A stretch of DNA of 64,000 nucleotides, taken from the NCBI RefSeq assembly GCF_003426815.1, contig NZ_QKYK01000001.1, forward strand, positions 62,001 to 126,000, given 5' to 3'. The notes below the pieces were generated by a model. The model made no database searches. It was given only the letters and a program-made list of their open reading frames with translations, and had not been told where the DNA came from. This document shows positions 52,855 through 61,896 of the stretch, piece by piece (positions within the stretch are counted from its first letter, which is position 1; every line of letters begins with the position of its first letter). The DNA is from Desertimonas flava. Lineage in GTDB: Bacteria; Actinomycetota; Acidimicrobiia; Acidimicrobiales; Ilumatobacteraceae. The position numbers and the translations under genes were made by a program.

Positions 52855-54192
52855 TCACAACGCTCGCAGGTAGCGGTCGATCTCGAAGTCCGACACGTGG
52901 GTCTTGTAGTCCTGCCACTCTCGCCATTTGTTGCGCAGGAACCATTCGAAGATGTGCTCACCGAGCGTCTCGCGCACGAGATCGGAGCCCTCCATGGCGT
53001 TCAGCGCCTCAGCGAGCGACTGCGGCAACCGGCTGATGTTCATCTTGTCGAGGACGTCGTCGTCGATCTCGAACAGGTTGGCGTCCGCCTCGGCGGGCAG
53101 CTCGTAGCCCTCGTCAACCCCCTTCATGCCGGCGGCGAGGATGACGGCGAAGGCGAGGTACGGGTTGCAGGCCGGATCGGGCGAGCGGTACTCGAGGCGG
53201 GTCGCCAGCGGGTTGCCGCGCTTGGCGATCGGGATGCGGATCAGGCCGCTGCGGTTGTTGCGGGCCCACGAGACGTGGACGGGCGCCTCGAACCCGGGCA
53301 CGAGGCGCTTGTAGCTGTTCACCGTCTGGTTGGTGATCGCCGTGATCTCGGCCGCATGGTGCAGCAGGCCGGCGACGAAGGCCTTGGCGGTTGGCGACAG
53401 GTTGTAGTCGTCGTCGCTGTCGAAGAAGGCGTTCTCGTCGCCGCGGAACAGCGACATGTGCGTGTGCATCCCCGATCCCTGCACCCCCTGCAGCGGCTTG
53501 GGCATGAACGTCGCGTGGAGTCCCTGGGACACCGCCAGCTCGCGGACGATGAGCCGGAACGTCATCACGCTGTCGGCCATCGACACGGCGTCGGTGTGCC
53601 GCAGGTCGATCTCCTGCTGGCTCGGCGCGTCCTCGTGGAAGCTGTACTCGACCGGGATCCCCATCGACTCGAGCGTGCGGATCGTCTGCTTGCGGAGTGA
53701 CTCCGTGACGTCGTTGGCGGCGAGGTCGAAGAAGCTCGCCTGATCGAGCGGCACGGGACGCTCGCCGGGGCCGGGAGCGGCGAAGTAGAAGAACTCGATG
53801 TCGGGGGCGACGTAGAACGTGAGGCCCCGCCCGTGGGCGTCCTGGACGAGACGCTTGAGCACCTGGCGGGAGTCGCCGATGAACGGCGAGCCGTCGAGGT
53901 CATGGATGTCGCAGAAGATGCGGGCCTCGGGCGTCTTGGGGTCTCCCCACGGGAGCAGCTCGAACGTGTTGGCATCGGGGATGGCCAGCACGTCGGCCTC
54001 CTGGATGCGTGAGAAGCCGTCGATCGACGAGCCGTCGAACGTCATGCCCCCGTCGAGCGCGTTCTCCAGCTCGGCCGGTGAGATGGCGAAGCTCTTGAGA
54101 TTCCCGAGGATGTCGGTGAACCACATCCGAACGAGGCGGACGCCGCGTTCCTCGACGCCTCTCATGATGTACTCGTGCTGTTGTTCCAGCAT
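52855..54192 (-). CDS. glnA: Glutamine synthetase, type I-like
   Basis: This 445-residue GSI-type enzyme has MTFDGSSIDGF, the Glu metal site DIEFFYF, HEDAPSQQEIDLRHTDAVSM, SGMHTHMSL (metal His) and the Asn/Arg site NRSGLIRIP, ending at DFEIDRYLRAL. At 445 residues it is the shorter GSI-alpha type; the usual adenylylation Tyr loop is not apparent. It makes glutamine from glutamate and ammonia. It is cotranscribed with the GlnR-like gene downstream. Confidence 0.95.
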   Translation of the reverse strand: MLEQQHEYIMRGVEERGVRLVRMWFTDILGNLKSFAISPAELENALDGGMTFDGSSIDGFSRIQEADVLAIPDANTFELLPWGDPKTPEARIFCDIHDLDGSPFIGDSRQVLKRLVQDAHGRGLTFYVAPDIEFFYFAAPGPGERPVPLDQASFFDLAANDVTESLRKQTIRTLESMGIPVEYSFHEDAPSQQEIDLRHTDAVSMADSVMTFRLIVRELAVSQGLHATFMPKPLQGVQGSGMHTHMSLFRGDENAFFDSDDDYNLSPTAKAFVAGLLHHAAEITAITNQTVNSYKRLVPGFEAPVHVSWARNNRSGLIRIPIAKRGNPLATRLEYRSPDPACNPYLAFAVILAAGMKGVDEGYELPAEADANLFEIDDDVLDKMNISRLPQSLAEALNAMEGSDLVRETLGEHIFEWFLRNKWREWQDYKTHVSDFEIDRYLRAL

Positions 54193-54220
54193 TCCCTGAT
54201 CCTCGCATCCCAGAGCGGAA

Positions 54221-54257
54221 ACGGGAAGGAGCGGTCCGCCGACCCGCTCCTTCCCGT
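54221..54257 (-). terminator. Hairpin terminator candidate after glnII
   Basis: ACGGGAAGGAGCGG at 54221-54234 pairs perfectly with 54244-54257, with a 9-base loop. It lies about 100 bases downstream of glnII and ahead of glnA on the minus strand. No T-run. Confidence 0.55.
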
Positions 54258-54320
54258 ACCGAACGTCGAGGCCGTGGCGGCCTCGCTAAGACTCGCTCAG
54301 CCGGCGATCACCGCAGCTGC

Positions 54321-54370
54321 TCGTGACGCATCGTCACATTGCCGATCGTGACGCATCGTCACATTGCCGA
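54321..54370. repeat. 25-bp tandem duplication at the 3-prime end of glnII
   Basis: Two identical units (54321-54345, 54346-54370) begin TCGTGACGCATCGTCACATT. Each contains the palindrome GTGACGCATCGTCAC. The second unit contains the glnII stop codon. Confidence 0.85.
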
Positions 54371-55360
54371 GCAGACCGTGTCCACCATCAGGCGGGCGAC
54401 CACGTACGGGTCCATGTTGGCATTGGGGCGCCGGTCCTCGAGGTAGCCCTTGCCGTCACGCGACACCTGCAGCGGGATGCGGATGGACGCACCGCGGTCG
54501 GAGACGCCGTAGCTGAACTTGTTCCACGGGGCCGTCTCGTGGTGACCGGTGAGGCGGTCCTGGATGCCGTGGCCGTAGTTGTTGACGTGGAGCTCGACCT
54601 TCTTGCCGAGGGCCTTGCACGCCTCCTCGATGTACTTGTAGCCGCCGTCCTCACGCATCTCCTTGGTGGAGAAGTTGGTGTGGGCGCCGGCGCCGTTCCA
54701 GTCGCCCTTCATGGGCTTGGGGTCGAGCGTGGCCGACACGTCGAAGTCCTCGGCGGTGCGGTACAGCAACCAGCGGGCGACCCACAGCTGGTCGGCGACC
54801 TCGAGTGGGCCGAGCGGGCCGACCTGGAACTCCCACTGGCCGATCATCACTTCGGCGTTGACGCCGCTGATGGAGAGGCCGGCCTCGAGACAGTTCTCGA
54901 GGTGCTCCTCGACGATCTCGCGGCCGAAGATCTCGTCGGAGCCGACGCCGCAGTAGTAGCCACCCTGCGGTGCGGGGAAGCCACCGACCGGGAAGCCGTA
55001 GGGGCGCCCGTCCTTGAAGAACGTGTACTCCTGCTCGATGCCGAAGAGCGACTCGTGCTTGGCGTACTTCTTGGCCGTCTTGACGAGGGCGGCGCGGGTG
55101 TTGGTGGGGTGCGGCTTGCCGTCGGCGGTGTACACCTCGGTCATGACGAGCACGTCGTCGCCGCCGCGGATCGGGTCGGGGCAGGAGAAGACGGGGACCA
55201 GGACGCAGTCGCTGCGGTCGCCGGTGGCCTGGTTCGTGCTGGAGCCGTCGAAGCCCCACTCGGGCAGCTCGGCGCCGTCCGCGAGGATCTTCGTCTTCGA
55301 CCGCAGCTTGCCGGTCGGTTCGGTGCCGTCGATCCAGATGTATTCAGCCTTGTAGACCAC
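54359..55360 (-). CDS. glnII: Glutamine synthetase, type II (eukaryote-like)
   Basis: This 333-residue GSII has the opening YIWIDGTEPTGKLRSKTKIL, LPEWGFDGSSTNQA, LFGIEQEYTFF (metal Glu), NAEVMIGQWEFQVGPLG and DWNGAGAHTNFSTKEMR, with GHHETAPWNKFSYGVSDRGA near the end. It duplicates the reaction of the adjacent GSI; in actinobacteria GSII is usually induced under nitrogen limitation by GlnR. GAGGAG lies 4 bases before the GTG start. A four-half-site GlnR-like box lies 97-134 bases upstream. Confidence 0.96.
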   Translation of the reverse strand: MVYKAEYIWIDGTEPTGKLRSKTKILADGAELPEWGFDGSSTNQATGDRSDCVLVPVFSCPDPIRGGDDVLVMTEVYTADGKPHPTNTRAALVKTAKKYAKHESLFGIEQEYTFFKDGRPYGFPVGGFPAPQGGYYCGVGSDEIFGREIVEEHLENCLEAGLSISGVNAEVMIGQWEFQVGPLGPLEVADQLWVARWLLYRTAEDFDVSATLDPKPMKGDWNGAGAHTNFSTKEMREDGGYKYIEEACKALGKKVELHVNNYGHGIQDRLTGHHETAPWNKFSYGVSDRGASIRIPLQVSRDGKGYLEDRRPNANMDPYVVARLMVDTVCSAM

Positions 55361-55499: not shown

Positions 55500-56042
55500 T
55501 CAGCCGCCGCCGCTGGTGACGGCGGCGACGATCTCGTCGAAGGCGGCGTCGGCGTAGGCCCGCATCTCGTCGTCGGTGCGGTCTTGGATCGGGTGCGGTG
55601 TGAACACCCTGGCGATCTCGGAGAACCCGAGCGCGGCCGCTTGGGTCGCGGCCGCGTCGACGAACTCGGCAGACGCGACGAACACACCCGGAACCCCTCG
55701 GAGCTCGAGGTCACTGATGTCGTGCACACTGCACGACGTGCAACTGCCTCAATCGGCGAGCGCCTCGATGACCAGGGTGCACTGCACCGAGATCTCGTGG
55801 CGCAGATCGACGGGCGCCGGTTTGGTGAACGTCGGCTTGGCGTAGCGGTGGACGGTTGCTCCGGCGTCGGTGAGCCGGGACTCGAGCCGGTCGAGGAACA
55901 CGTCGCCGCGGGGCTTGGAGATGTCGAGCAGGGCGACGTGCTGGCCGGCGATCGACGCCGGGCGGGCGAGACGCCGGCGTTCGGCGACCTCGCGCTCGCC
56001 CGTCGGGTCGAGGACGTAGCGCGCCGCGGTCGTGTCGCTCAT
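55500..56042 (-). CDS. UGSC-type selenoprotein, read through an in-frame UGA
   Basis: The frame from ATG 56042 reads MSDTTAARYVLDPTGE to EALAD, meets TGA at 55749-55751, and continues in the same frame as GSCTSCSVHDISDLELRG to a true TGA at 55500, giving 180 residues with Sec98. The continuation has no start or ribosome site of its own and keeps coding bias. U98-G-S-C101 is the signature I recall for UGSC (seleno)proteins, whose conserved N-terminus carries VLDPTG as here. C104 is a third nearby thiol. The likely role is a redox or thiol-chalcogen reaction; substrate unknown. It lies 22 bases after its thioredoxin-fold partner and near all sel genes. The family name is from memory, not searched. 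Confidence 0.9.
55719..55751 (-). promoter_or_regulatory. Bacterial SECIS element following the UGA codon
   Basis: Starting 11 bases after the UGA, GTCGTGCA-GTG-TGCACGAC forms an 8-bp perfect stem (or 7-bp with loop AGTGT). E. coli fdhF also has 11 bases between UGA and its apical hairpin. It is the only strong hairpin in this coding segment. Confidence 0.7.
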
Positions 56043-56064: not shown

Positions 56065-57534
56065 TCACGGGCTGACCGCCCTCGTGACGGGCTGGCTGCC
56101 GGTGGTGCCGTTGGCCCAGCCGCCGATGATCGCCGAGAAGAGGCCGGCGCCGCCTCCCGCCGAGGCCAGCAGGATGCCATCGGGCCGGAACTTGGGCAGG
56201 GTCTCGGCGGGGATGCCGGGCTTCACGCCCTCCTCGATGCCGCCGGCGCCGCGCACGAGCTCGTCCATCGGGATGGTCAAGCGGCTGTGCAACTCGGCGA
56301 GGACGCGGTCGCGATCCCAGCCGGCCTCGGCGAACACGCGGATGTGCTCGGGGCCGAGCACCAAGATGGCGTCGAAGGCGATGACGAGCTTGGGGTGATG
56401 AAGGGTGCGCAGGCACGACGCCAGCGTGTTGGCGAGGCTGTCTGGTGTGCGCGAGATCTGGTCGACGACGCAGCGCGGCCCCTCGCCGGCGAACACGGTG
56501 ACGGCGTCGGTGCCGGGCGGGATGCCGCGCTGGGCGGCCAGTGTGCCGAGCGGCGAATCGGCGAGCTCCGGGAAGCAGAACGACAGCTTGCCGGGGTTGC
56601 CGTGGGTGGCTCGATCGACGCCACCGGGACGGCCGCCGCCGACGTTGCGGACCACCAGCTGAACCGCCCGGCCGATCGTCATGTTGGCCCGGTTGCCCTG
56701 GCCGAAGACGTTCACGCCGCTGTTCATGCCGATCGCCTGGGTGCCCGGACCGCTGGCGACGATGACCGGTCCGACGGGCATCGTGGTGGCGAGGACGCCG
56801 TGGATGTTGAACTCGTCGTTGCAGATCGCCTCGATGACGGTGAGGACCCAGGGGAGGTACTCGGGCAGGCAGCCGGCCATGACGGCGGCGATGGCGACCT
56901 TCTCGACCGAGACCTCGACGAGGTCGGGCGGGACGACGGCGACGACGTCTCGCGGCGACCGGGTGGTGCCGGCGAGCATGCGCATCACCCGCTCCTCGGT
57001 GGGCGGGACGACGGGAAGCCCGTCGGTCCAGCCGCGCGTGAACATCGCCTCGATGTCGTCCTCCTGGCGGGCCAACTCGACGCGGCGCGAGTGCAGGATG
57101 CCGCCCTCGAAGCGCACCCGCAGCCGGTCGACGAGGTCGGGGTCGACGCTCAGCGAGCCGCAGCCGGGACGCATCACGGGCAGGTCGTCGCCGAGATCGG
57201 CGATGCCGGTGATCCGCTGCCAGTCCTCGCGGGACCACCCGACGGTGCGTTCCTGCTCCCTCCCGTCGACGACGCGGATGAGCGTCGGCACGGTCTCGAT
57301 GTCGTGGTGCCAGCTGACGGCGAGCTCGGTGTCGTCGACGCCGGCGACCTCGCTGGGGAAGGCCGGGTCGTCCTGCGAGTACACCGTGAGCGGTCCGGCG
57401 TCGGCGAGGCGGGGGAGCAGCGGAGCGACGAGCCGGCAGGTGGCGCACTCCTGCTTCACCACGACGACGAGCCCGTCGGGCAGCGTCGGCGCAGCGGTCG
57501 AGTCCGTCACGGCGGTCGTCGCTGTCGTGGTCAT
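56065..57534 (-). CDS. Thioredoxin-fold protein fused to a large WTDGLPVVPPT domain, partner of the selenoprotein
   Basis: This is a 489-residue protein. Residues 20-120 form a thioredoxin-like domain with C30-A-T-C33 in VVVKQECATCRLVAPLL and a cis-Pro at TVPTL (P83). C125 in MRPGCGSLS follows. From about residue 155 a long domain carries RGWTDGLPVVPPTEERVMRM, NDEFNIHGVLATTMPVGPVI and a Gly-rich end LLASAGGGAGLFSAIIGGW. I know such WTDG proteins as genomic partners of UGSC proteins, though their activity is unknown. The start MTTTATT (57534) is chosen because the longer frame would read back through the tRNA-Sec region. It is first gene of an operon with the selenoprotein. Confidence 0.8.
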   Translation of the reverse strand: MTTTATTAVTDSTAAPTLPDGLVVVVKQECATCRLVAPLLPRLADAGPLTVYSQDDPAFPSEVAGVDDTELAVSWHHDIETVPTLIRVVDGREQERTVGWSREDWQRITGIADLGDDLPVMRPGCGSLSVDPDLVDRLRVRFEGGILHSRRVELARQEDDIEAMFTRGWTDGLPVVPPTEERVMRMLAGTTRSPRDVVAVVPPDLVEVSVEKVAIAAVMAGCLPEYLPWVLTVIEAICNDEFNIHGVLATTMPVGPVIVASGPGTQAIGMNSGVNVFGQGNRANMTIGRAVQLVVRNVGGGRPGGVDRATHGNPGKLSFCFPELADSPLGTLAAQRGIPPGTDAVTVFAGEGPRCVVDQISRTPDSLANTLASCLRTLHHPKLVIAFDAILVLGPEHIRVFAEAGWDRDRVLAELHSRLTIPMDELVRGAGGIEEGVKPGIPAETLPKFRPDGILLASAGGGAGLFSAIIGGWANGTTGSQPVTRAVSP

Positions 57535-57657: not shown

Positions 57658-57753
57658 GGAGGTGTCCGAGTGCCTGGTGGACTCCGCCGCCTTCAAAGCG
57701 GTCGGGACGAGAGCACCTCGTCCGGCGGGTTCGATTCCCGTCCACCTCCGCCA
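57658..57753 (+). tRNA. selC: tRNA-Sec (anticodon TCA)
   Basis: The 96-base tRNA includes encoded CCA. Acceptor GGAGGTG pairs with CACCTCC (seven pairs, then T-C at pair 8). The anticodon loop CTTCAAA carries TCA at 57693-57695 on a GCCGC/GCGGT stem. A long variable arm GGGACGAG/CTCGTCC and T-loop TTCGATT follow. The UCA anticodon and long extra arm identify a selenocysteine tRNA rather than tRNA-Ser. It is convergent with selB. Confidence 0.95.
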
Positions 57754-57843: not shown

Positions 57844-59550
57844 TCAGAGCGCCGGGAGGAGCGGGCCGCCGATGTGGAGCGGGTCGCGTCGTCGCGTCAC
57901 GCCGCGGGCGGCCAGCTCGCCGAGCAGGGCGAGGGCGTACTTGCGGGTGGTCGCCGCGGCGTCGCGGAACTGGGCGACGGTGAACCCATCGGGCGATGTG
58001 GCGAGCAGCGAGGCGGCCACAGCAGCCGCCTCGTCGATCGCGTCCGGATGGAACCACACGCCATCCCGCTCGACGAGGACCCGTCGGGTCCGGAGGTCGC
58101 GGAGCACGTCGCGAGGCGCGTCGGGTTCGGGGGGTTGGAGGCCCCCGAGGCGGAGCTGCTCGACGACCGGGTGCTCCCCCTGACCGGTGGTCCCGAGGGT
58201 CACCCACTCGCCGCTCAGCGTGAGGTCGTCGAGATGATCGACGAGGGCTCGCTCACGATCGTCGAGAAGGCTCGCGGCGAGACCGGGCGCCGGGCTGGCG
58301 GTGACGCGTGCCCGGAGCGACTCGGTGAGAGCGGCGAGGGCGACGGGGTCGGCGACCCATGTCCCGATCGTCGGCTCGACCATCACCCCCGTGAGCCGGG
58401 CGAGATCGGCGCTGGTCACCCACCCGCGCTCGGCAACGACCCGTTGCCATCGGCGATCGGGTGCCGCCTTGGACAGCGGGAGCCGCGGGTCGATGTCGAG
58501 CACCTCGCCGCCGCCGACGGTCTCGTCCCGGCCCGACTCGCGCAGGATGAAGCGATCCCCCGGCAGCAGCGGCAGCCCGACACCGAGACGCAGACGGACG
58601 GCGCCCGTCGCCCCCGGCGCCACCGAGCGGGCGCCGATCACCTGCAGCTCGGAGCGGTACTCGCCCGATCCGATGTGCACGGAATAGGAGCCGCGCCGCC
58701 CGACGTCGTGGGCGATCCCCGCCAGCACGGTGAGCTGGGCATCGAATTGCGACGTCGTCCACCAGTCCGCGGGCGTGACGACGACATCGCCGCGCCGGAC
58801 CGTGTCGGCGGAGACGCCGCGCAGGTTGAGCGCCGCCCGCTCGCGTGCCCCGACCGCCCCCACCGCTTCGCCGCGGACGTGAATACCGCGCAGCGACGAG
58901 GCGACATCGTGCGGCATGACGGCGACGGCCTGGTCGATCGTGAATCCGGCGCCCTCGGTCACGCCGGTGACGATCGTGCCGCTGCCGGCCACCGTGAAGG
59001 CGCGGTCCACCCACAGGCGTGAGCGTCCCGGCCCGGGGGGCGGCGGTGGGTCGACGAGACGGTCGAGCTCTGTGAGGAGGACGTCGAGCCCGACGCCCGT
59101 GCGCGCCGACACGGCGACCCTCGGCACCGTCTCGAGCGGGCTGCCGGCAAGCCGCTCGCCGAGCTCGTCGAGGACCAGCCCGAGGTCCTCGTCGTCGACG
59201 AGGTCGCACTTGGTCACCGCGACGACGCCCCGGTCGATGCCGAGCAGCTCGACGATGCGCAGGTGCTCCTCGGACTGGGCCCGCCACCCCTCGCTGGCGT
59301 CGACGACGAACAGGCACACGTCGGCCCCGCCGACGCCGGCGAGCATGTTGCCGAGGAAGCGGCTGTGACCCGGTACGTCGACGAAGCTCACGGGCCGGCC
59401 CGACGGCAGCGCGGTGTGGGCGAAGCCGAGGTCGATCGTCAGACCGCGTCGCTTCTCCTCGGCAAAGCGGTCGGGGTCGGTACCGGTGAGGGCCTCGATC
59501 AAGGCCGACTTGCCGTGATCGACGTGTCCGGCGGTGGCGATGACGCTCAC
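57844..59550 (-). CDS. selB: Selenocysteine-specific elongation factor SelB
   Basis: This 568-residue GTPase has G1 AGHVDHGKSALIEALTG, G3 DVPGHSRFLGNM and G4 TKCD, with the switch region RRGLTIDLGFA, then EF-Tu-like beta-barrels and a C-terminal run of winged-helix domains (RTRRVLVERDGVWFHPDAID, GELAARGVTRRRDPLHIG) that bind the SECIS hairpin. It delivers Sec-tRNA-Sec to the ribosome at UGA. It is last of the selD-selA-selB operon, 22 bases after selA. Confidence 0.96.
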   Translation of the reverse strand: MSVIATAGHVDHGKSALIEALTGTDPDRFAEEKRRGLTIDLGFAHTALPSGRPVSFVDVPGHSRFLGNMLAGVGGADVCLFVVDASEGWRAQSEEHLRIVELLGIDRGVVAVTKCDLVDDEDLGLVLDELGERLAGSPLETVPRVAVSARTGVGLDVLLTELDRLVDPPPPPGPGRSRLWVDRAFTVAGSGTIVTGVTEGAGFTIDQAVAVMPHDVASSLRGIHVRGEAVGAVGARERAALNLRGVSADTVRRGDVVVTPADWWTTSQFDAQLTVLAGIAHDVGRRGSYSVHIGSGEYRSELQVIGARSVAPGATGAVRLRLGVGLPLLPGDRFILRESGRDETVGGGEVLDIDPRLPLSKAAPDRRWQRVVAERGWVTSADLARLTGVMVEPTIGTWVADPVALAALTESLRARVTASPAPGLAASLLDDRERALVDHLDDLTLSGEWVTLGTTGQGEHPVVEQLRLGGLQPPEPDAPRDVLRDLRTRRVLVERDGVWFHPDAIDEAAAVAASLLATSPDGFTVAQFRDAAATTRKYALALLGELAARGVTRRRDPLHIGGPLLPAL

Positions 59551-59572: not shown

Positions 59573-60847
59573 TCACCGCGCGATGGAGGTGAGGGCGGCG
59601 GTCACCGCAGGATCGTGGTGGGGGTCGACGGCGCGGAGGTCGAGGACCGTCCGCCCCTCGTGGATCCGGGCGATGACCGGGCGGTCGGCGGCCCGTAGCG
59701 ATACGAGGTGATCGCCGTCGATCGCCAGGCCGAACGAGGGAATCGTCGCGCCGGGCGCGGCGCCGGCGCCGGGGACCGCGTCGGTTGCTGTCGGCACGAG
59801 GTGGTCCGCCGTCGCCAGGGCGGCCGCCCTCGCCTCGAGGTCGGCGACCGGCGTCGTCGCCATGCGCCAGAACGGGATCGCCCGGCCGTCACGGCGCAGG
59901 TAGGTCAGCGCCAGGTCCTGCAGGGCGCCCAACACCAGACCGCCCGGCCGGAGGGCGCGAGCCAGGGGGTGGCGGGCGCAGCGTTCGACGAGGTCGGCCC
60001 GCCCGGCGATGATCCCGGCCTGTGGGCCACCAAGCAGCTTGTCGCCGCTGAACGTGACGATGTCGGCGCCGGCGGCCACGGTCTGCACGGCGGCCGGTTC
60101 GTCGGCCAGCCAGCGCGGCGGACCGTCGGGGAGCCACGGACAGCGGCTGTCGAGCAGCCCGCCCCCGAGGTCGACCACGACCGGCGGTCCGATCGTCGCC
60201 AGCTCGGCCACGCCGACCGTCTCGGTGAAGCCCTCGACACGGAAGTTGCTCGGGTGCACCTTGAGGAGCAGGGCGAGGTCGGGGTGGCGTTCGGCGGCGT
60301 GCTGGTAGTCGCCCAACCGGGTCCGATTGGTCGTGCCGACGTCGACGAGGCGGGCGCCGGACTGTTCGAGGACGTCGGGGACCCGGAAGCCCCCGCCGAT
60401 CTCGACGCTCTCCCCGCGGGAGACGGCGACCGACCGGCCGTTGGCGAGGGCGGCGAGCACGAGGAGGACGGCGCCGGCGTTGTTGTTCACGACCATCGCC
60501 GACTCGGTGGCGCACAGTCGGGCGAACAATCCACCGACGGCCGCTTGTCGGGAGCCCCGCTCGCCCGACTCGAGGTCGAACTCGACGGTCTGGGCAGCCG
60601 CCGGCTGCCGGTGGGCGACGGGCGCTCGGCCGAGGTTGGTGTGGAGCAGCACACCGGTGGCGTTGATGACCGGGCTGAGCAGGCGGCGACGTCGCGAGTC
60701 GGCGACCGCCTGCGCGGAGTCGGGCCGACCGTCGGCGATCGCCTGCCGGGCGGCATCGACCAGCAGGGGGTGGGGAAGGCCCTGCAGACGGCGCGCCAGC
60801 GCATCGACCGACGGAGGGCGGTCGGCGACGGGTTCGCTCGTGGTCAT
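59573..60847 (-). CDS. selA: L-seryl-tRNA(Sec) selenium transferase SelA
   Basis: This 424-residue PLP enzyme converts Ser-tRNA-Sec to Sec-tRNA-Sec with selenophosphate. It has the family start NATGVLLHTNLGRAP, MVVNNNAGAVLLVLAALANG and the PLP lysine in TFSGDKLLGGPQAG. Its N-terminal region (ARRLQGLPHPLLVDAAR) is the tRNA-binding part. The start overlaps the selD stop by a few bases (ATGA), so the three sel genes form one operon. Confidence 0.96.
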   Translation of the reverse strand: MTTSEPVADRPPSVDALARRLQGLPHPLLVDAARQAIADGRPDSAQAVADSRRRRLLSPVINATGVLLHTNLGRAPVAHRQPAAAQTVEFDLESGERGSRQAAVGGLFARLCATESAMVVNNNAGAVLLVLAALANGRSVAVSRGESVEIGGGFRVPDVLEQSGARLVDVGTTNRTRLGDYQHAAERHPDLALLLKVHPSNFRVEGFTETVGVAELATIGPPVVVDLGGGLLDSRCPWLPDGPPRWLADEPAAVQTVAAGADIVTFSGDKLLGGPQAGIIAGRADLVERCARHPLARALRPGGLVLGALQDLALTYLRRDGRAIPFWRMATTPVADLEARAAALATADHLVPTATDAVPGAGAAPGATIPSFGLAIDGDHLVSLRAADRPVIARIHEGRTVLDLRAVDPHHDPAVTAALTSIAR

Positions 60848-61896
60848 TTCGTCACGTCGACGCCGGGGTCACTGGCCGACGCGACGTCGCCGACCCGCCA
60901 CCACGTGAGTCCGGAACCGCCGACGGGACGGCCGACGAGATCGTCAGCCACCTCGGGAGCCACTGCGGCCAGCAGCCCACCGGACGTCTGCGGATCGAAG
61001 CAGAGGGCGTCGTCGGCCTCGCCGCCCGACGACGTGAACCGCCCGTCGACGTAGGCCCGGTTGCGGGGATCGCCGCCGGTCCGGACGCCGTCCTCGGCTG
61101 CCTCGCGCGCTCCCGCGTAGGCGATCAGGCCGGCGGCGTCGATGCGCACCCGGACGCCCGATCGCTCGGCCATCTCCCATGCGTGACCGGCGAGTCCGTA
61201 TCCCGTCACATCGGTGACGGCGTGGACGGCCGGGCCGGCCGCGACGAGCTGCTCGGCGGCGTCGCGGTTCAGCGTGCGCATGCCGCCGATCGCCGCCGCT
61301 TTGGCTGCTTCCGATCCCCCCGCCAAGGCCAGCGCCGTGCCGATCGGCTTGGACAGCACGAGCACGTCGCCGGCGAGGGCGCCGCCCTTGCGGAACACTC
61401 GGCGGGGGTCGACGAGGCCTTGGACGGCGAGACCGAAGATCGGTTCGGGGTTGCGGATCGTGTGGCCGCCACCGATGGAGCCGCCGGCGTCGCGCACGAC
61501 CTCGGACGCGGCGGCGAAGATCGTGGTGATCACCTGGCGCGGCATCTCCTCGGGGAAGGCGGCGATGTTCAGCGCCACGGCGACCCGACCGCCCATGGCG
61601 TACACGTCGCTGCACGCGTTGGCAGCGGCGATCGCCCCGAAGTCCGCCGGGTCGTCGACGAGGGGAGGAAAGAAGTCGGTGGTCGACACGAGGGCCAGGT
61701 CGTCGGACACCTGGTAGATGGCGGCGTCGTCGAACGGGGCGAGGCCGACGAGTAGGCCCGGCGCCGCCGTGGACGGCAGCTCGTCGACCAGTTCGCGCAG
61801 CAGTGACGCGCCCCACTTCGCCGCGCAGCCGCCGCACGACGTCCACTCGGTGAGCCGGATCGTGGCCGTGGGCGGGGCGTCGGTGGCGTTCGTCAC
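60844..61896 (-). CDS. selD: Selenide, water dikinase SelD
   Basis: This 350-residue enzyme makes selenophosphate from selenide and ATP. It has a catalytic Cys and Lys in TEWTSCGGCAAKWG, DLALVSTTDFFPPLVDDPAD, GGSIGGGHTIRNPEPIFG and the conserved LCFDPQTSGGLL near the end. The active-site residue is Cys rather than Sec, so SelD itself is not a selenoprotein. It is first gene of the sel operon. Confidence 0.97.
   Translation of the reverse strand: MTNATDAPPTATIRLTEWTSCGGCAAKWGASLLRELVDELPSTAAPGLLVGLAPFDDAAIYQVSDDLALVSTTDFFPPLVDDPADFGAIAAANACSDVYAMGGRVAVALNIAAFPEEMPRQVITTIFAAASEVVRDAGGSIGGGHTIRNPEPIFGLAVQGLVDPRRVFRKGGALAGDVLVLSKPIGTALALAGGSEAAKAAAIGGMRTLNRDAAEQLVAAGPAVHAVTDVTGYGLAGHAWEMAERSGVRVRIDAAGLIAYAGAREAAEDGVRTGGDPRNRAYVDGRFTSSGGEADDALCFDPQTSGGLLAAVAPEVADDLVGRPVGGSGLTWWRVGDVASASDPGVDVTK

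Follow-up and report, generated by a model that had tools for sequence, protein, structure and literature searches.

Does a reading frame of Desertimonas flava that is interrupted by an in-frame UGA encode one selenoprotein and, if so, what would that protein do? The frame lies on the minus strand of the stretch analysed here (the window), 64,000 nucleotides (nt) of contig NZ_QKYK01000001.1 (assembly GCF_003426815.1, positions 62,001 to 126,000), where a first-pass annotation made from the letters alone had joined two abutting open reading frames into a single gene of the UGSC family with selenocysteine (Sec) at residue 98. Judged from sequence comparison, the gene is almost certainly a true selenoprotein gene, in which UGA98 would be decoded as Sec by means of a hairpin, the neighbouring selB, and selA, selD and tRNA-Sec. 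Its product is very probably a catalytic domain that stands alone and is a distant homologue of the Sec domain of protein B of glycine, betaine and D-proline reductases (GrdB/PrdB). The gene, its recoding elements and the adjoining partner gene are located as follows:

55500..56042, minus strand: UGSC selenoprotein gene, 180 residues including Sec98, matching NF041046 and PF24696 above cut-off.
55749..55751, minus strand: in-frame TGA, Sec codon 98, opening the UGSCTSC (UxxCxxC) motif; TGA in 111/111 loci.
55719..55737, minus strand: bacterial hairpin of the selenocysteine insertion sequence (SECIS) type, GUCGUGCA-GUG-UGCACGAC, assessed by codon freezing, covariation and minimum free energy.
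56065..57534, minus strand: N3 gene (489 residues), with an N-terminal thioredoxin-like CATC domain and an unnamed core of ~340 residues; predicted local distance difference test (pLDDT) of the model 90.1.

Between 56042 and 55500 the frame holds no stops besides the TGA of codon 98 (55751-55749) and the terminal TGA (55502-55500), and its translation carries VLDPTG at residues 10-15 and EALAD-U-GSCTSC in the middle of the protein, exactly at the coordinates first proposed. The read-through protein matched the NCBIfam model NF041046 with 159.3 bits (cut-off 125) and Pfam PF24696 with 150.6 bits (cut-off 25), both alignments spanning the UGA, and it has the U/C-G-S-C motif of the family. It is thus an ordinary member of the already known and functionally uncharacterised UGSC (seleno)protein family to which it had been assigned, the UGSC-containing protein of the Global Ocean Sampling (GOS) survey, and resembles it over its whole length. 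The genome (6.2 Mb; relatives in the Ilumatobacteraceae) has one UGSC copy. The downstream half indeed lacks a convincing start of its own, the sole candidate being a GTG at 55727 that lies within both the recoding hairpin and the conserved family domain.

All 111 loci fetched from relatives have TGA at the Sec site, followed by GSCTSC (105) or GSCTTC (6); because the family matches cross the UGA and these loci keep TGA within UGSC(T/S)xC, the arrangement is not due to chance. Among 81 relatives, 49 gave a family match above the cut-off, nearly all with one internal TGA. The UxxCxxC motif is invariant in the window's clade, and an alignment of 37 UGSC members shows no variation at the U/C, at the G or at the second Cys of this motif. 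Cys at the Sec position is confined to distant members (L112, L126, L130, L131 and Roseovarius), and in distant relatives the position is rarely Met. The homologue comparison that the first-pass annotation had suggested therefore favoured its reading: homologues read across residue 98, with TGA at this site if close and Cys if distant, and no close homologue among the fetched loci ended at the UGA, the outcome it had named as contrary. Its expectation that such a gene would be reported as two hypothetical fragments applies to Paracoccus ferrooxidans pFER4, where a UGA-containing UGSC gene (L220:6396-6965, selB ~4.4 kb off) has been entered as a pair of hypothetical proteins (E3U26_23345 and E3U26_23350); this fate is not inevitable, since the NCBI pipeline has a UGSC model and names Cys members as UGSC (seleno)protein.

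The SECIS-type hairpin comprises 19 nt and begins 14 nt past the first base of the UGA. Within it, codons +6 (Cys, TGC), +7 (Ser, AGT), +8 (Val, GTG) and +10 (Asp, GAC) are unchanged in 100/100 non-redundant orthologues, as is codon +4 (Thr, ACG) at its edge, despite the existence of six codons for Ser and four each for Val and Thr; from +12 onward codons vary freely. One stem pair, the single informative one, covaries (GC in 93 sequences, AU in 8, GU in 6, CU in 2, and A-C never). Considering that the minimum free energy of -21.1 kcal/mol differs modestly from that of shuffled sequences (z -2.0), the argument for the element is built on codon freezing and covariation; a five-sequence RNA alignment was discarded for a mis-set row (L112).

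The machinery that would read this element is encoded in the window:

57658..57753, plus strand: tRNA-Sec (anticodon UCA), found by ARAGORN and Rfam RF01852 (64.8 bits).
57844..59550, minus strand: selB, Sec-specific elongation factor; TIGR00475 E 1.6e-67, 229 bits, below the curated 242.
59573..60847, minus strand: selA, Sec synthase; TIGR00474 E 1.5e-112, above cut-off.
60844..61896, minus strand: selD, selenophosphate synthetase in its Cys form (TSCGGCAAK), from translation; homologue of the selD genes in related loci.

All four genes of the set previously placed within 6 kb were located, selB, selA and selD on the minus strand no more than 5.9 kb from the UGSC gene and tRNA-Sec between. 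Across the 81 relatives, selA scored above the cut-off in 49 of the 52 genomes that have Sec-UGSC and in 9 of the 29 that do not (Fisher p = 2e-9), the three exceptions among the former being incomplete assemblies (84-90%). The SelB of the window stays under the TIGR00475 cut-off, unlike that of most relatives, and its C-terminal part has diverged. Formate dehydrogenase was considered as a further selenoprotein of this genome, in a search that was not exhaustive, and rejected: every Fdh-like gene lacks an in-frame TGA, so formate dehydrogenase does not account for the sel genes of the window.

The relation to GrdB emerged from both model and profile comparisons. Against TIGR01917, 24 of the 37 UGSC members matched at E<=1 (best 9e-7), and the best member matched four GrdB-type NCBIfam models at 9e-7 to 1e-5, including TIGR01918 (9.7e-7) and betaine GrdH (2.3e-6). 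The comparison set of GrdB-like genes was gathered from the same order, each gene being read through its own UGA. Profile-profile alignment of UGSC with this set reached a probability of 90% (E 1.4e-6), with Sec98 falling in the Sec column of GrdB, and 78% when the motif (residues 97-105) was masked, while the reversed alignment gave 0.1% and comparison with N3 gave 0.4%. After column shuffling, 58 of 60 controls scored at most 20.4, versus 49.7 for the real pair; the remaining two, at ~133, were discounted on inspection as end-gap artefacts with a summed probability of 0.0, one of them with 4 aligned columns. The alignment shows a common layout of a strand, U-x-x-C-x-x-C, a helix, a GIP/GVP strand and an HP-type segment, UxxCxxC being the motif described for GrdB (PMC13188914). 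The Sec domain of GrdB, GrdF, GrdH and PrdB (PF07355, TIGR01917, TIGR01918, TIGR04483) and UGSC thus share a Sec at the end of a strand preceding a helix, the UxxCxxC motif, a G[IV]P...HP[IL]G-like segment after it and thioredoxin as probable electron source. Unlike the GrdB-type proteins, UGSC is a single domain of 180 residues, falls short of the PF07355 cut-off and has N3 as its partner in place of GrdE or PrdA.

GrdB/PrdB-like selenoproteins with ...LLTPV-U-PxC motifs are themselves numerous in same-order relatives (L147-L171), where the annotated frames end at the UGA. Four same-order genomes (G056, G076, G077 and G368) carry a full GrdB (TAT-U-GTGTRC), which was unexpected in an actinobacterial order; where the region upstream of it can be seen, a frame of GrdE length lies there.

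The AlphaFold model of UGSC (mean pLDDT 94.8) consists of five beta-alpha units in alternation and places Sec where strand 3 ends, ahead of helix 3. The best 50 PDB matches listed by Foldseek are Rossmann/flavodoxin-like and none has the thioredoxin fold; a PDB search by sequence returned nothing significant (best E 0.25). This confident model predicts a Rossmann-like alpha/beta fold and not the thioredoxin fold of the literature, in which the GOS survey described UGSC as likely thioredoxin-like (PMC2398784) and a 2026 review sets it apart from GrdB, among thioredoxin-like proteins (PMC13188914). We found no paper linking UGSC with GrdB, and a subscription paper or Pfam clan note doing so could exist.

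Only ~22 nt separate the stop of N3 from the ATG of UGSC. N3 adjoins UGSC on the same strand for 78 of 81 UGSC hits in 81 genomes (median gap 103 bases), and 4 of 82 N3 hits lack an adjoining UGSC. The pairing persists in paralogues down to 27% identity, extends to haloarchaeal plasmids and Proteobacteria, and takes the form of fusions in Sporomusa and Vibrio. From this constancy we infer that UGSC in all likelihood works as a complex with N3, encoded directly upstream. The GOS survey reported UGSC fused to Unknown_1 (PMC2398784), which, judging from the fusion, probably corresponds to the N3 core. The core has no Pfam or NCBIfam domain, and the PDB fold search was clear only for the thioredoxin domain of N3; the best matches of the core, cyclic amide hydrolase and fumarase folds (template modelling (TM) score ~0.2, below significance), were not used as assignments.

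In the window's clade N3 opens with a thioredoxin-like CxTC domain that is missing elsewhere. Free thioredoxin genes occur as trxB-trxA-N3-UGSC in Arthrobacter, as N3-UGSC-trxB in Roseovarius and as trxB near the pair in Variovorax. A thioredoxin that is fused to N3 in one lineage and a neighbour in others suggests thioredoxin as the electron donor, as in glycine reductase, which is likewise supplied by TrxB/TrxA (PMC3091704). Around the paralogous pairs we found TRAP, TTT and ABC transporters, CaiB-type coenzyme A (CoA)-transferases, acyl-CoA dehydrogenases, enoyl-CoA hydratases and LysR regulators, a catabolic setting. Genome G059 (loci L192-L198) holds ~ten UGSC-N3 pairs, nearly all with TGA and in differing neighbourhoods, a radiation of selenoprotein paralogues; such a number in one genome is what substrate diversification, known for GrdB as well, would lead one to expect (PMC10838667). 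There, the FarB/FarE fluoroacetate reductases are GrdB-like selenoproteins shifted to other leaving groups (C-F), and they differ from UGSC-N3 in being true GrdB/GrdE homologues of anaerobes (PMC10838667).

Some neighbours were recorded in their own right. In genome G331, each of the three UGSC-N3 pairs (L172-L174) lies within ~2-7 kb of ABC transporter genes, which group by similarity with a CBS-domain ATPase and permease of ProV/ProW type (glycine betaine/proline). In the window, two glutamine synthetase genes directly follow UGSC (52855-55360, minus strand), and such genes also occur a few kb downstream in L066, L077, L081, L085, L096 and L100. A link to released ammonia was dropped and the neighbourhood taken as synteny only, because these genes are ~3-5 kb away in most related loci where seen.

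Most likely, UGSC-N3 is a thioredoxin-driven selenoenzyme of the GrdB type that breaks a bond of a small molecule taken up by the cell. A Sec-containing, GrdB-related UGSC that acts in a complex with N3 by a GrdB-type mechanism is the best overall explanation, and we consider it somewhat favoured. On the detailed chemistry our judgement is evenly balanced. The selenolate of Sec98 would be shielded and recycled via C101 and C104 and would attack a polarised carbon in a small molecule that N3 binds as substrate; the leaving group (amine, halide or similar) would be expelled, and the oxidised or substituted selenium would be reset by thioredoxin, which is fused to N3 in the window's lineage.

Several observations weigh against this picture. 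For no UGSC member is a PF07355 match listed at E<=1, let alone one above the gathering score, genome G000 has no PF07355 gene, and the homology covers only ~60-100 residues. N3 is unrelated to GrdE (0.3%) or to the N-terminal half of GrdB, and is thus not a partner of the GrdE/PrdA type, so that a substrate-holding role for N3 is proposed by analogy. GrdA, GrdC and GrdD did not turn up, in work that included no search aimed at them, and a PDB search with the GrdB-like set yielded no GrdB structure for fold comparison. Free thioredoxin genes flank the pair in only three of the annotated plasmid loci, and the other actinobacterial loci examined have none beside it. Glycine reductase is an enzyme of strict anaerobes, and the Ilumatobacter relatives are aerobes. 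Lastly, fused UGSC-N3 proteins with Met in place of Sec (GDMGTS) occur in Sporomusa termitida and Vibrio europaeus plasmids (L217:6320-8044 and L219:6368-8053), near aconitase X and DUF126 genes. They imply that some of the family functions with neither Sec nor Cys, and are a caution that certain members may have a non-reductive core reaction.

These fusions speak for a reading in which UGSC-N3 is no reductase at all: ahead of CoA activation, its Sec or Cys would act as a covalent nucleophile in a reaction of the lyase, hydrolase or transferase kind, and thioredoxin would only keep that residue reduced. CoA-transferases and CoA lyases are frequent nearby, and the weak resemblance of N3 to cyclic amide hydrolases and fumarases would fit as well; that resemblance lies below significance, the motif residues are invariant to the extent described above, and a dedicated thioredoxin is fused to N3, all of which leave this reading rather doubtful. 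We regard as less probable still, and unlikely, that UGSC is a thioredoxin-fold thiol/selenol oxidoreductase, such as a disulfide or peroxide reductase, with Sec98 and Cys101 as a redox UxxC pair. The label in the literature, the UxxC motif and the thioredoxin domain next door speak for it, and the predicted Rossmann/flavodoxin-like model and the sequence relation to GrdB speak against it.

It is extremely improbable that the UGA is a real stop marking a pseudogene, a sequencing error or two separate genes. The mechanical reading frame does end there and a GTG follows 24 nt downstream, but TGA is kept throughout the 111 loci, the motif and both halves are conserved, the hairpin codons are frozen and the sel genes are linked.

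Beyond the first-pass annotation, our analysis adds N3 as partner, evidence for a SECIS element and the relation to GrdB. New for the UGSC family are this relation, the constant N3 partner, the fused thioredoxin and a Rossmann-like model in place of a thioredoxin-like one. UGSC is among the most abundant selenoproteins of aquatic metagenomes, and its fold label is probably wrong. From the tie to GrdB, the constant partner and thioredoxin comes a concrete hypothesis about the enzyme, together with a minimal list of proteins for expression, and the GrdB-type enzyme hypothesis for UGSC-N3, including the GrdB link and the N3 partnership, is worth following up. Tentatively, and with less assurance than for the mechanism, UGSC-N3 could form a class of its own, GrdB-type selenoenzymes with two subunits and powered by thioredoxin, in which the N3 fold replaces GrdE in holding and activating the substrate, widespread in likely aerobic aquatic bacteria and with many paralogues for different substrates. 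If true, glycine-reductase chemistry would have been carried beyond the fermenting anaerobes.
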